From: Tepidicaulis marinus | GTDB taxonomy: Bacteria; Pseudomonadota; Alphaproteobacteria; Parvibaculales; Parvibaculaceae | Direction of reading: 5' to 3' | Assembly (NCBI RefSeq): GCF_000739695.1 | Contig: NZ_BBIO01000001.1 | Location: forward strand, 124,001-188,000 | DNA length: 64,000 bases | Shown: in pieces, positions 34,817 through 38,362 of the stretch | Layout: each line of letters opens with the position of its first letter | Position numbering within the stretch: position 1 is the first letter of the stretch | The notes under the pieces: generated by a model | The model's database searches: none | Seen by the model: the letters and a program-made list of their open reading frames with translations, nothing else | What the model was told of the DNA's origin: nothing | Position numbers and translations under genes: made by a program

Positions 34817-34927
34817 AACTCCAGGGGCAAGGCTACCCCGCGCCGTCCGCAATTCTTTCCGGCACCGTTTTTCGCATTGGGCCGGACTTTTTTTCCGACC
34901 GACGTTCCGTAATGGATGGAGTTTTCA

Positions 34928-36304
34928 ATGTCGCAAACCGCACAGATTTCCAATCAGACCCGCCGCTGGCAGGAAATGGATGCCCGCCACCATGTGCATC
35001 CCTTTTCCGATCAGGCAGCCCTTGCCAAGAAGGGCGCCCGGGTCATCACCCATGCCGAAGGCGTTTATCTTTACGATTCCGAAGGCCACAAAATCATCGA
35101 CGGCATGGCCGGTCTTTGGTGTGTGAATGTGGGTTATGGGCGCTCGGAGCTTGCCGAGGCCGGCTACAAGGCGCTGAAAGAGCTGCCCTATTACAATACG
35201 TTTTTCCAGACGACGAACCCTTATACCGCCGAGCTCGGCGAGCGGCTGGCGGAAGTGACCCCGGACGGGCTCGACCGGTTCTTCTTCGCCAATTCCGGCT
35301 CCGAAGCCAATGACAGCATGGTGAAGATCATCCGCTATTATTGGAGCCTTCAGGGCAAGCCGGAAAAGAAAGTCTTCATCTCCCGCAAGCAGGCCTATCA
35401 CGGTGTCACCATGACGGCGGCCTCGCTTTCGGGCATCTCGGCCATGCATCCGCAAGCCGGTCTGCCGCTGCCGAACCACGCCCATATCGATTTTCCCTAC
35501 TGGTACGGGATGGGCGGGGACATGGACCCGAACGAATTCGGCGTGCATATCGCCATGAAGCTGGAAGAAAAGATCCTGGAAATCGGCGCGGAAAACGTCG
35601 CCGCTTTCGTCGCCGAGCCCGTGCAAGGGGCGGGCGGGCTTATCATTCCGCCGGACAGCTACTGGCCGGTCATTCAGGAGATTTGCCACAAATACGACAT
35701 TCTTCTGCATGCGGATGAAGTGATCTGCGGCTTCGGGCGCACCGGCAATTGGTTCGGCAGCCACACTTACGGCATCGTGCCGGACACGATGGCCATGGCC
35801 AAGGGCATGACCTCCGGCTACCAGCCGCTTTCCGCGGTCGCCCTTGGGCCGCGTGTCGGCGATGCCTTGCACAATTCCGGCGAGGAATGGTCGCACGGCT
35901 TCACCTATTCCGGCCACCCCGTGGCCAGCGCCGTGGCGCTCGCCAATCTCGACGTGCTGCAAAAAGACAAGCTCGTCGAAAAAGCGGGCGGGGAAACCGG
36001 GGAGCATTTCCTGAAGCATCTTCACGCCCTCGCCGATCATCCGATCGTCGGGGAAACGCGCGGCGTCGGTCTTCTAGGCGCGATCGAGCTGGTCAAAGAC
36101 AAGAAGACCCGCGAGCGCTTTGAAGGCGATACCGGCGGGCTTTGCCGCGATCATTGCTTCGAGAACGATCTCATCATGCGCGCCATCGGCAACACCATGG
36201 TGCTGAGCCCGCCGCTTTCCATCACCAAGGCCGAGCTCGATGAGCTTTTCACGCTCGCCCGCAAGGCGCTCGATGCCACCGCCAAAGATCTCGGCGCGAT
36301 GTAA
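34928..36304 (+). CDS. Class III aminotransferase, putrescine/polyamine-pyruvate type (SpuC-like)
   Basis: 458 residues. Omega-amino acid/polyamine transaminase. PLP motifs: FFANSGSEANDSMVKIIRYY, QAYHGVTMTAASLSG, LLHADEVICGFGRTG and the Schiff-base Lys in MAMAKGMTSGYQPLSAV. The N-terminus (HHVHPFSDQAALAKKGARVITHAEGVYL) matches SpuC and related putrescine-pyruvate transaminases. The start at 34928 is set by GGAG (34918-34921) with six bases of spacing; the earlier ATG at 34916 overlaps the SD. A strong terminator follows. Confidence 0.9.
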   Translation: MSQTAQISNQTRRWQEMDARHHVHPFSDQAALAKKGARVITHAEGVYLYDSEGHKIIDGMAGLWCVNVGYGRSELAEAGYKALKELPYYNTFFQTTNPYTAELGERLAEVTPDGLDRFFFANSGSEANDSMVKIIRYYWSLQGKPEKKVFISRKQAYHGVTMTAASLSGISAMHPQAGLPLPNHAHIDFPYWYGMGGDMDPNEFGVHIAMKLEEKILEIGAENVAAFVAEPVQGAGGLIIPPDSYWPVIQEICHKYDILLHADEVICGFGRTGNWFGSHTYGIVPDTMAMAKGMTSGYQPLSAVALGPRVGDALHNSGEEWSHGFTYSGHPVASAVALANLDVLQKDKLVEKAGGETGEHFLKHLHALADHPIVGETRGVGLLGAIELVKDKKTRERFEGDTGGLCRDHCFENDLIMRAIGNTMVLSPPLSITKAELDELFTLARKALDATAKDLGAM

Positions 36305-36330
36305 AGAGGCAGAACCGGACGGAACTTCGG

Positions 36331-36365
36331 GCGGCGCTTCCAGGATATCGGAAGCGCCGCTTTTT
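36331..36365 (+). terminator. Intrinsic terminator after the SpuC-like gene
   Basis: Eleven-base-pair stem GCGGCGCTTCC (36331-36341) with GGAAGCGCCGC (36350-36360), eight-base loop, then TTTTT. Confidence 0.93.
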
Positions 36366-36548: not shown

Positions 36549-36591
36549 TGGAACGGTTCCAGTTGAACTGGGGCCGGGACACACCTATCTC
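36549..36591 (+). promoter_or_regulatory. Candidate promoter with overlapping palindromes for the small RNA
   Basis: TTGAAC (36563-36568), 17 bases, TATCTC (36586-36591). The -35 lies inside the palindrome CCAGTTGAACTGG (36559-36571), which overlaps a second palindrome TGGAACGGTTCCA (36549-36561). The layout suggests an operator covering the -35. Confidence 0.35.
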
Positions 36592-36597
36592 TAGTCT

Positions 36598-36760
36598 CAG
36601 CAGGGTTGGAAAAGAACCGGCCCGGGATAAGCCCCCCTCTCCCGGCCATCGTTCCTCCTCCCTGAAGAAGTGCCGGTCTTCCCCTCCTGGCACTTCGCGC
36701 ACTGACAGTAAGTAGCGCATCGTGCCCCGCCTCCCCCCAAGGCGGGGCACGACTCTTTTC
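36598..36760 (+). ncRNA. Candidate trans-acting small RNA with CCTCCTCCC motif
   Basis: About 160 bases with no coding potential between two genes, ending in a strong intrinsic terminator. Three stem-loops have C-rich loops: GGCCCGGGA/TCCCGGCC (36619-36647, loop with CCCCCC, one bulge), GAAGTGCC/GGCACTTC (36667-36696, loop with CCCCTCC), and the terminator TCGTGCCCCGCC/GGCGGGGCACGA (36720-36752, loop with CCCCCC, tail CTCTTTT). Between stems 1 and 2 is CCTCCTCCC at 36654-36662, the anti-Shine-Dalgarno motif known from alphaproteobacterial sRNAs (for example CcsR RNAs of Rhodobacter and NfeR1/alpha-r14 of Sinorhizobium). The 5' end is inferred from the promoter. Confidence 0.6.
36720..36760 (+). 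terminator. Intrinsic terminator of the candidate small RNA
   Basis: Twelve-base-pair stem (36720-36731 with 36741-36752), loop TCCCCCCAA, then CTCTTTT. It cannot serve the SpuC-like gene, which already ends at its own terminator at 36331-36365. Confidence 0.85.
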
Positions 36761-36896
36761 CGGCCCGTTTATTTGACGTCCCTTCCCGAATGAGGGAACG
36801 CGCGGGCGGAAAGCCGGGCTGCATCGCGCCCCGATTCGCGCTATAAGATGGCCCGCCCCGCAAGGGACACCGCACCCCAACATCAAAGCCTTCAAG

Positions 36897-37505
36897 ATGA
36901 ATCAAGACCCCCAACGCGCGCCCACCGATCAGGAACTGGAACTGCTCTCCCAGGAGATGCCCGCTCTCGCCCGGCTGCGGGATTTCGCGCGGCTGGCGGA
37001 ATCCGTTCAATGGTTTTCGGATCTCGGCACACCCTTGCGCAAATCCGTGCGCGAGATCGCCCGCGCCTATCTCGACGGCCTCGGCTTTCCGGATGTGCAT
37101 ATGGCCCGCCTTCACTCCTGGGAAGAAGCGGCGGCGGCCGGTGAAAGCCTCGACTGGGATACCGAAGGATGGGAGGCCGAAGAAGGCCTGCGCGCCGCGC
37201 TCACCACCGATGCGCTCGAGCAGCTCAGCCAGGAAGCGCTGGAGGTCGGCCTTGCTTATCTTTTTTCCGCCATCGAAGACCCGATCCGCCAAGCCGTGCT
37301 GACCGCCGCCGCCATCTGGGGCGAAGACGATGAAGAGCTGCTCGCCGCCGCCATGGGCTCGGCGCTGCAAGCGGCCCATTGCGCCGCGCTCGCCGTCGTT
37401 GCCGGAGAGGACGATGAAACCCATCCCTTCATCCACCGCTTCCGCCTGTTCGAGCGCGGCCGCTGGCCCGTCAGCCTTGCCGGGCGCACCTATAATATTT
37501 TCTGA
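36897..37505 (+). CDS. Hypothetical protein
   Basis: 202 residues, no family recognised. Mostly helical, acidic (many Glu/Asp and Ala), with no signal peptide or membrane segment. Blocks that look structured: LARLRDFARLAESVQWFSDLG, YLDGLGFPDVHMARLHSWEEA, and AAHCAALAVVAGEDDETHPF. Codon use and composition match the neighbours, so it is a real gene. It ends 44 bp before xthA and may be cotranscribed with it. Confidence 0.75.
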   Translation: MNQDPQRAPTDQELELLSQEMPALARLRDFARLAESVQWFSDLGTPLRKSVREIARAYLDGLGFPDVHMARLHSWEEAAAAGESLDWDTEGWEAEEGLRAALTTDALEQLSQEALEVGLAYLFSAIEDPIRQAVLTAAAIWGEDDEELLAAAMGSALQAAHCAALAVVAGEDDETHPFIHRFRLFERGRWPVSLAGRTYNIF

Positions 37506-37549: not shown

Positions 37550-38362
37550 GTGCCGCTCAAGCTTGCCACCTGGAACATCAATTCCGTCCGCCTGCGGATC
37601 AATCTCGTCGAACGTTTTCTGGAAGAATATCAGCCGGACGTTCTGTGCCTGCAGGAAACGAAATGTCCGAACGATGCTTTCCCCTCCAAGGCCTTCCGCA
37701 AGGCAGGCTATGAGCATATCGCCTTTCATGGGCAAAAGGGCTATCACGGCGTCGCCACGGTGAGCCGCATTCCTTTTAGCGATGAAGAGCGGCGCGACTT
37801 CTGCGAGAAAGGCGACACGCGCCACCTTGCCGTCACACTCGACATCGATGGGGCAGAAGGCGTGCGTGTGCATAATTTTTATGTACCCGCCGGCGGCGAC
37901 GAGCCCGACCGCGAGGTGAACGAGAAATTCGCGCACAAGCTCGATTTCCTGACCGAGATGGAAAGCTGGTACAAATCCCACAAGGCCAAGAAGAACGCCC
38001 GCATGATCCTGGTCGGCGATCTCAATGTCGCCCCGCTCGAACACGACGTCTGGTCGCACAAGCAATTACTGAAAGTCGTCAGCCATACGCCGATCGAGGT
38101 CGAACATCTTGCCCGCGTCATGAAGGCTCATGACTGGGTGGACGTGATGCGCCGCTTCGTGCCGGATGAAGAAAAGCTCTATACTTGGTGGAGCTACCGC
38201 GCAAAGGACTGGGCGAAAGCGGACAAGGGCCGCCGCCTCGATCATATCTGGGTCACGCCGGCGCTGGCCGACACACCCACCGCCATGGAAGTCATAAGAG
38301 ACGCGCGCGGCTGGGAGCGCAGCTCCGATCATGCGCCGGTGCTTGCCACCTTCGATATCTGA
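37550..38362 (+). CDS. xthA: Exodeoxyribonuclease III
   Basis: 270 residues, GTG start with AAGGA at 37536-37540. AP endonuclease and 3'-5' exonuclease of base excision repair. Motifs in order: ATWNINSVRLR (metal Asn), CLQETKCPN (metal Glu), YHGVATVSR, GDLNVAPLEHDV (catalytic Asp-Asn), and RLDHIWVT with SDHAPVLATF (catalytic Asp-His). Complete. In relatives this gene commonly follows ftsK-lolA; here 5 kb of other genes separate them. Confidence 0.95.
   Translation: MPLKLATWNINSVRLRINLVERFLEEYQPDVLCLQETKCPNDAFPSKAFRKAGYEHIAFHGQKGYHGVATVSRIPFSDEERRDFCEKGDTRHLAVTLDIDGAEGVRVHNFYVPAGGDEPDREVNEKFAHKLDFLTEMESWYKSHKAKKNARMILVGDLNVAPLEHDVWSHKQLLKVVSHTPIEVEHLARVMKAHDWVDVMRRFVPDEEKLYTWWSYRAKDWAKADKGRRLDHIWVTPALADTPTAMEVIRDARGWERSSDHAPVLATFDI

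Follow-up and report, generated by a model that had tools for sequence, protein, structure and literature searches.

This work describes a small RNA (sRNA) gene of Tepidicaulis marinus, located within a 64,000-nucleotide stretch of genomic DNA (the window), and compares it with related loci across the Alphaproteobacteria. The gene has its own promoter and terminator and a predicted transcript of ∼160 nt. With good confidence, we consider the product to be a trans-acting sRNA, most likely an orthologue of RusT, that would repress outer-membrane transporters by pairing through the loop of its second stem-loop. This assignment connects an RNA so far unannotated in Parvibaculum and its relatives with one that has been studied experimentally, and thereby suggests a testable function for it, namely, control of outer-membrane nutrient uptake; a literature search retrieved no paper combining Parvibaculum and sRNA. 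If the assignment is true, RusT would become a class-wide model for the evolution of an sRNA together with its locus and target sites, and Rfam would be supplied with a family that is now absent from it.

RusT (CCNA_R0199) of Caulobacter crescentus is described in passages of PMC11005374, a paper also cited in PMC12559287, as an Hfq-bound RNA of 118 nt with four stem-loops, encoded between lolA and xth. The same passages name iron starvation and high zinc as inducing conditions, place it under the control of NtrYX, and list TonB-dependent receptors and ompW among the targets that it represses (PMC11005374). Its seed region spans nt 45-57 and includes C53, in the loop of stem-loop 2; the substitution C53G weakened repression of two reporters, and of three targets tested with compensatory changes, two regained regulation (PMC11005374). 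Homologues are described there in closely related Caulobacteraceae (PMC11005374).

In the window, the sRNA gene occupies approximately positions 36598-36759 of the plus strand, on which all window features given here lie. A preliminary description, made from the letters of the DNA alone, had proposed an sRNA at this place, and its outline was borne out: the upstream SpuC-like aminotransferase gene is closed off by a terminator-like site (36329-36362), a further, strong terminator is found at 36720-36752, and the stretch up to it forms a compact promoter-to-terminator gene. Over the 1.3 kb scanned, 6 terminator-like sites were found versus 1.8 expected. The proposed promoter, TTGAAC-N17-TATCTC (36563-36591), comprises a -35 box at 36563-36568 and a -10 box at 36586-36591, the latter conserved among homologue upstream regions in the form CTATCT, from 36585. 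The 17-nt spacer recurs in all 11 of the first homologues (window included), which were chosen by a pattern that required both boxes and allowed a spacer of 10-22 nt; beyond these 11, the comparison drew on the upstream regions of 49 homologues. A simple sigma-70 scan picked up no promoter at the sRNA. Transcription would start near 36598, a 5′ end placed from the promoter position to within 2-3 nt. The sequence 36598-36765 folds much better than its shuffled versions (z score, -6.56).

The statement that no reading frame precedes the terminator did not hold, as frames do cross the region, for example, one from 36563 to 36715 with a TTG start. A coding region was nevertheless rejected: the lengths of indels among the homologues are not all multiples of three, and compensatory changes preserve the stems, both of which argue against coding. 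As a separate observation, several genomes of genus g5 (Parvibaculum), e.g., at loci L079, L083, L085, and L090, carry a near-palindrome like GTTTAC-N3-TGTAAAC just 5′ of the -35 box, possibly a regulator site; no such element lies upstream of the window sRNA.

The predicted transcript (36599-36759) folds into four stem-loops, the last of which is the rho-independent terminator. Stem-loop 1 (36601-36664), supported by the fold and by covariation of helices 1-4, is closed by a basal stem (36601-36605/36660-36664) and carries an apical loop with GCCCCCC (36628-36639). Stem-loop 2 (36667-36696), the proposed seed hairpin, has a covarying stem (helix 5) and displays the loop UCUUCCCCUC at 36677-36686. 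Stem-loop 3 (36697-36718) is a small GCGC hairpin predicted by the fold, whose pairs (helix 6) are mostly invariant and hence provide little covariation evidence. Stem-loop 4 (36720-36759; fold and helix 7) consists of the terminator at 36720-36752, with its CCCCCC loop, followed by a U-rich tail. The three hairpins with C-rich loops that had been reported earlier are real and conserved, but the hairpin at 36697-36718 had been overlooked.

The earlier reading had also placed the motif CCTCCTCCC in a single-stranded linker. The motif is present at 36654-36662, but it falls on the 3′ side of stem-loop 1 and is mostly paired in the predicted transcript, with a mean probability of being unpaired of 0.23 versus 0.97 for the core of loop 2. 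The minimum free energy structure of 36598-36765 does show the motif as unpaired, but in that structure the 5′ end is paired to sequence 3′ of the terminator. In relatives, the corresponding nucleotides form the 3′ strand of the stem at the base of hairpin 1, and the motif itself is not conserved, occurring in 1 of 49 homologues, that of the window.

Homologues were gathered by a DNA search, which gave a match at an E value of ≤0.01 in 12 of 61 genomes. The terminator is palindromic, and DNA matches also arise on the wrong strand; reading both strands left 11 homologues, including that of the window. A covariance model built from these first 11, R1, found one copy each in 37 of the 40 genomes of the order and had no match in G004 (99% complete) or in G008 and G061 (70-71% complete). 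In G011, for example, the sRNA maps to 1427088-1427243 on the minus strand. Conservation of the stems in related genomes, which had been put forward as a check, was confirmed: across the 37 model-fitted rows, 96% of cells are paired and 30 of the 46 pairs have changed on both sides, with none of 500 shuffles scoring as high. Since an alignment fitted to a structure leans towards that structure, the 35 full-length rows were realigned without it. From this structure-free alignment, RNAalifold still predicts 24 pairs, 15 of them with double changes. The pairs lie in the terminator, in stem 2, and in the apical part of stem 1, whereas stem 3 and the basal part of stem 1 do not reappear.

The sequence UCCCCUC in loop 2 is invariant in the 35 full-length members of the order and is present in 45 of 49 homologues in alignment A5, the four rows without it all coming from outside the order (A5 and A7 omit the incomplete rows L077 and L094). 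Conservation, covariation, promoter, terminator, and synteny thus strongly support an alphaproteobacterial sRNA of the trans-acting type, as far as sequence comparison can indicate. That part of the original proposal stands, but the CCTCCTCCC signature on which it had been based does not: the conserved pairing element would be loop 2 (UCCCCUC), and the closest relative would be RusT rather than NfeR1.

In a scan with Rfam at gathering scores, no family exceeded its cutoff at the window sRNA or in 29 distinct loci (sets of 20 and 13 with 4 shared, a few of the 20 not being confirmed homologues), and no Rfam 15 model recognises the family. The covariance search against alphaproteobacterial sRNA models that had been suggested as a check turned out negative, the cutoffs of ar14 and 6C both being missed. 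The ar14/NfeR1 family (RF02344) underlies the possibility that the window encodes a generic anti-Shine-Dalgarno sRNA acting via CCUCCUCCC. NfeR1/ar14 RNAs are likewise alphaproteobacterial, with several hairpins bearing C-rich motifs complementary to ribosome-binding sites, and passages of PMC10746234 and PMC3927594 describe CCUCCUCCC in three hairpins; ar14 is also among the sub-threshold Rfam matches of the window. Its score there is 21.2 bits, however, far under the cutoff of 58.8, and among 20 homologous loci no ar14 match occurs at an E value of ≤1. Rather than standing unpaired in three hairpins, CCUCCUCCC is found in one copy, in a stem arm, and no loop of the window sRNA carries it; the poor conservation and pairing of CCTCCTCCC, which lies in no loop either, count against the reading as well. 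We judge this explanation very unlikely and already largely refuted.

Three other T. marinus stretches match ar14 below the cutoff (27-31 bits): L014 (G000:C46:255280-255374, minus strand), L015 (G000:C41:64164-64270, plus strand), and L016 (G000:C28:19716-19810, minus strand). On its minus strand, L016 has CCTCCTCCC and a C-rich terminator loop, and it is a better ar14-type candidate than the window sRNA. At an E value of ≤0.01, such sub-threshold ar14 matches appear in 28 of the 40 genomes from the order, none of them over the cutoff.

Other known RNAs were considered in the same way. The 6C RNA (RF01066) shares with the window sRNA a small GCGC hairpin and, 3′ of it, a hairpin with a C6 loop, but it was rejected, with a window score of 35.9 bits (E value, 0.0048) below the cutoff of 47 and a match at an E value of ≤1 in 1 of 20 homologous loci (34.6 bits; E value, 0.85); the likeness probably reflects convergence of the terminator part. 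PmaR of Agrobacterium also has a C-rich single-stranded loop, through which it regulates mRNAs, but it forms one spoon-like hairpin and acts mostly as a positive regulator, according to passages of PMC6234868, where it is described as restricted to Agrobacterium and one Rhizobium strain. The remaining weak Rfam matches over the sRNA, Atu_C7 (window), ar7 (L037), and anti-hemB and sau-6072 (L045), are each single and below the cutoff.

Neighbouring genes, which are independent of the covariance model, provide a further line of comparison. Upstream of the window sRNA lies a class III aminotransferase gene (34916-36304; PRK07480 subfamily model over cutoff), found at this place in 34 of 37 family loci, the 3 misses being at contig ends. 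Downstream lie p202 (36897-37505), coding for a conserved 202-residue protein with no Pfam or NCBIfam match at an E value of ≤0.001, and then, on the same strand, xth (37550-38362), coding for exodeoxyribonuclease III (TIGR00195 over cutoff). Each of these two is downstream in 35 of 37 family loci, with both misses again at contig ends.

Such a constant position upstream of p202-xth would also suit a cis-acting leader or attenuator of these genes instead of a trans-acting sRNA. We hold this to be highly improbable, as a strong terminator ends the sRNA well ahead of p202, what is conserved is an exposed loop, and the genes downstream differ among loci (p202-xth in some, xth alone in others, and neither detected in the rest); in addition, RusT, encoded at the corresponding locus, acts in trans, as reported in passages of PMC11005374.

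Outside the family, loci were fetched from 38 genomes (f28 and f63 excluded). Downstream p202 and/or xth were found in 21 of these, at a distance of 1.2 kb and beyond another gene in the case of G037. Of the remaining genomes, 4 show just the aminotransferase and 7 just lolA, in each case upstream, and 6 have none of these genes. The arrangement aminotransferase-sRNA-p202-xth is kept outside the family in G164 (L122). The order lolA-sRNA-p202-xth occurs in 13 genomes from five families (f4, f39, f91, f116, and f121), and lolA-sRNA-p202 occurs in a further two (f123), whose stretch either stops short of where xth would be or contains none; lolA-sRNA-xth is found in G638, G506, and G499. Distances between the lolA match and the sRNA are 94-890 nt, which leaves room for intervening small genes. 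The 13 genomes with lolA-sRNA-p202-xth bridge the two locus arrangements. In several families of the class, p202 sits between the sRNA and xth.

For comparison with the RNAs at lolA-xth loci, a second covariance model, R2, was built from the 49 homologues, with no sequence of genus g300, which we take to be Caulobacter. R2 matched 40 of the 41 g300 genomes at an E value of ≤1. Among 30 loci fetched from this genus (L138 and L158-L186), 25 lie between lolA and xth and 5 lie elsewhere; 19 further, lower-ranked places, mostly in genomes not yet covered, divide into 12 and 7, respectively. In all, R2 matches the lolA-xth interval in 37 of 41 genomes (the exceptions are G713, G716, G726, and G737), with weak scores of 24.8-36.4 bits (E values, 4.9e-5 to 0.023). 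The matches at L162, L166, L181, L182, and L183, outside this interval, are possibly other C-rich sRNAs.

The g300 lolA-xth RNAs have CCGUGCCGG and UAUCCCCUCCCGG in common at all 25 loci. In the 17 loci measured, out of 18 chosen, the RNA runs for 115-124 nt from CGCATGG up to the U tract. When the 5′ end is set at CGCATGG, a choice of ours on which the exact numbering depends, nt 53 is a C of the stem-loop 2 loop in 17 of 17 loci; numbering instead from a 5′ end placed 118 nt before the U tract gives C at nt 53 in 5 loci and U in the other 12, still inside or beside the loop.

Set beside this group, the window sRNA has several features of RusT. Its gene lies upstream of xth and on the same strand (as in 35 of 37 family loci, with p202 between), and fold and covariation indicate four stem-loops with a terminal rho-independent terminator. 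In both RNAs, the loop of stem-loop 2 holds a conserved C-rich seed, which reads UAUCCCCUCC among the g300 RNAs and UCUUCCCCUCC in the window sRNA, with the same core at the corresponding place. Differences lie in length, the window sRNA having ∼160 nt and a longer stem-loop 1 compared with the 118 nt of RusT, and in the locus, where an aminotransferase gene replaces lolA upstream and p202 separates the sRNA from xth; lolA as the other neighbour was not treated as defining.

The comparison of descent was made with the g300 lolA-xth RNAs (37 of 41 genomes) rather than with the C. crescentus RusT sequence itself, and R2 scores in that genus are weak; the 5′ hairpin, moreover, differs much between the groups. 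These points leave some room for a class-wide alphaproteobacterial sRNA unrelated to RusT that came to the same neighbourhood by chance or through an insertion hotspot. This seems unlikely given that the RNAs lie on the same side and strand relative to xth, have the same order of stem-loops, share the core UCCCCUCC in the loop of stem-loop 2, and are connected by the bridging loci of 13 genomes in 5 families. The sequence comparisons point instead to the window sRNA as, most likely, the RusT orthologue of its order.

Across the class sample of 385 genomes, R1 gave matches in 22 and R2 gave matches in 78, counts that include family members. Among 299 genomes sampled over the phylum, R2 had matches in 21, five of them outside the class at the weak end of the list (E values, 0.0026-0.0098). 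Weak matches with none of the sought neighbours (L111, L112, L133, L141, L142, and L143) were not counted as homologues, nor was L140. Alignment A5 does include L109 among its 49 rows; there, lolA lies 849 nt upstream, and p202 and xth are both absent. In G066 (family f28), two model matches, L139 and L152, each lie near an xth-like gene, a pattern suggestive of a joint duplication of sRNA and xth.

The RNA family reaches well beyond the order within the Alphaproteobacteria, which suggests a regulator older and more widespread in the class than reported. With some reserve, we favour the view that RusT is an ancient sRNA of the Alphaproteobacteria rather than an invention of Caulobacter. It would have stood upstream of xth since before several orders split, its UCCCCUC loop core would have changed little, and complementarity to this core would have been retained, at least in some lineages, by ribosome-binding sites of TonB-dependent receptors, with GAGGGGA in place of GGAGG.

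In the proposed mechanism, the exposed loop of stem-loop 2 would pair with G-rich ribosome-binding sites (GAGGGGA) on mRNAs for outer-membrane transporters, TonB-dependent receptors first among them. Pairing would block translation, so that fewer such transporters are made under some stress. By analogy with Caulobacter, where the signal is iron shortage, the window sRNA may respond to a similar cue, and Hfq may assist its pairing. TonB-dependent receptors are tested targets of RusT and predicted ones of the window sRNA. Given the published RusT targets and the conserved seed, TonB-receptor start sites would be expected to carry the complement GAGGGGA.

The T. marinus genome has six TonB receptors, and GAGGGGA stands 2-12 nt before an ATG in 4 of the 6 genes, compared with 2 of 369 other open reading frames drawn from the window plus 400 kb of T. 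marinus sequence (Fisher P value of 2.8e-7, uncorrected, with 11 motifs counted and GAGGGGA noticed during a duplex-energy comparison before being counted). Other motifs at the receptors gave 0 of 6 for GAGGTGA, 0 of 6 for GAGGCGA, and 1 of 6 for GAGGAGA (P = 0.12). Local alignments show the six receptors to be 24-36% identical, and recent duplication is therefore not the explanation for their shared GAGGGGA. Duplex energies of loop 2 do not separate the receptors (-18.7 to -11.9 kcal/mol) from 48 control genes (median, -12.5; best, -20.9). In sequence from two relatives, G011 (800 kb) and G003 (740 kb), exact GAGGGGA occurs at 0 of 3 TonB receptors and AGGGGA occurs at 1 of 3, which does not reproduce the enrichment seen in T. 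marinus. Over the whole T. marinus genome, the pattern GGAGGGGA-N2-12-ATG has 29 entries, which represent 28 sites because one appears twice, versus a single entry for the reversed pattern, an excess that partly represents ordinary ribosome-binding sites. Genes with this pattern include those for a FadL-type outer-membrane protein, an AcrB-type transporter, and NrdR.
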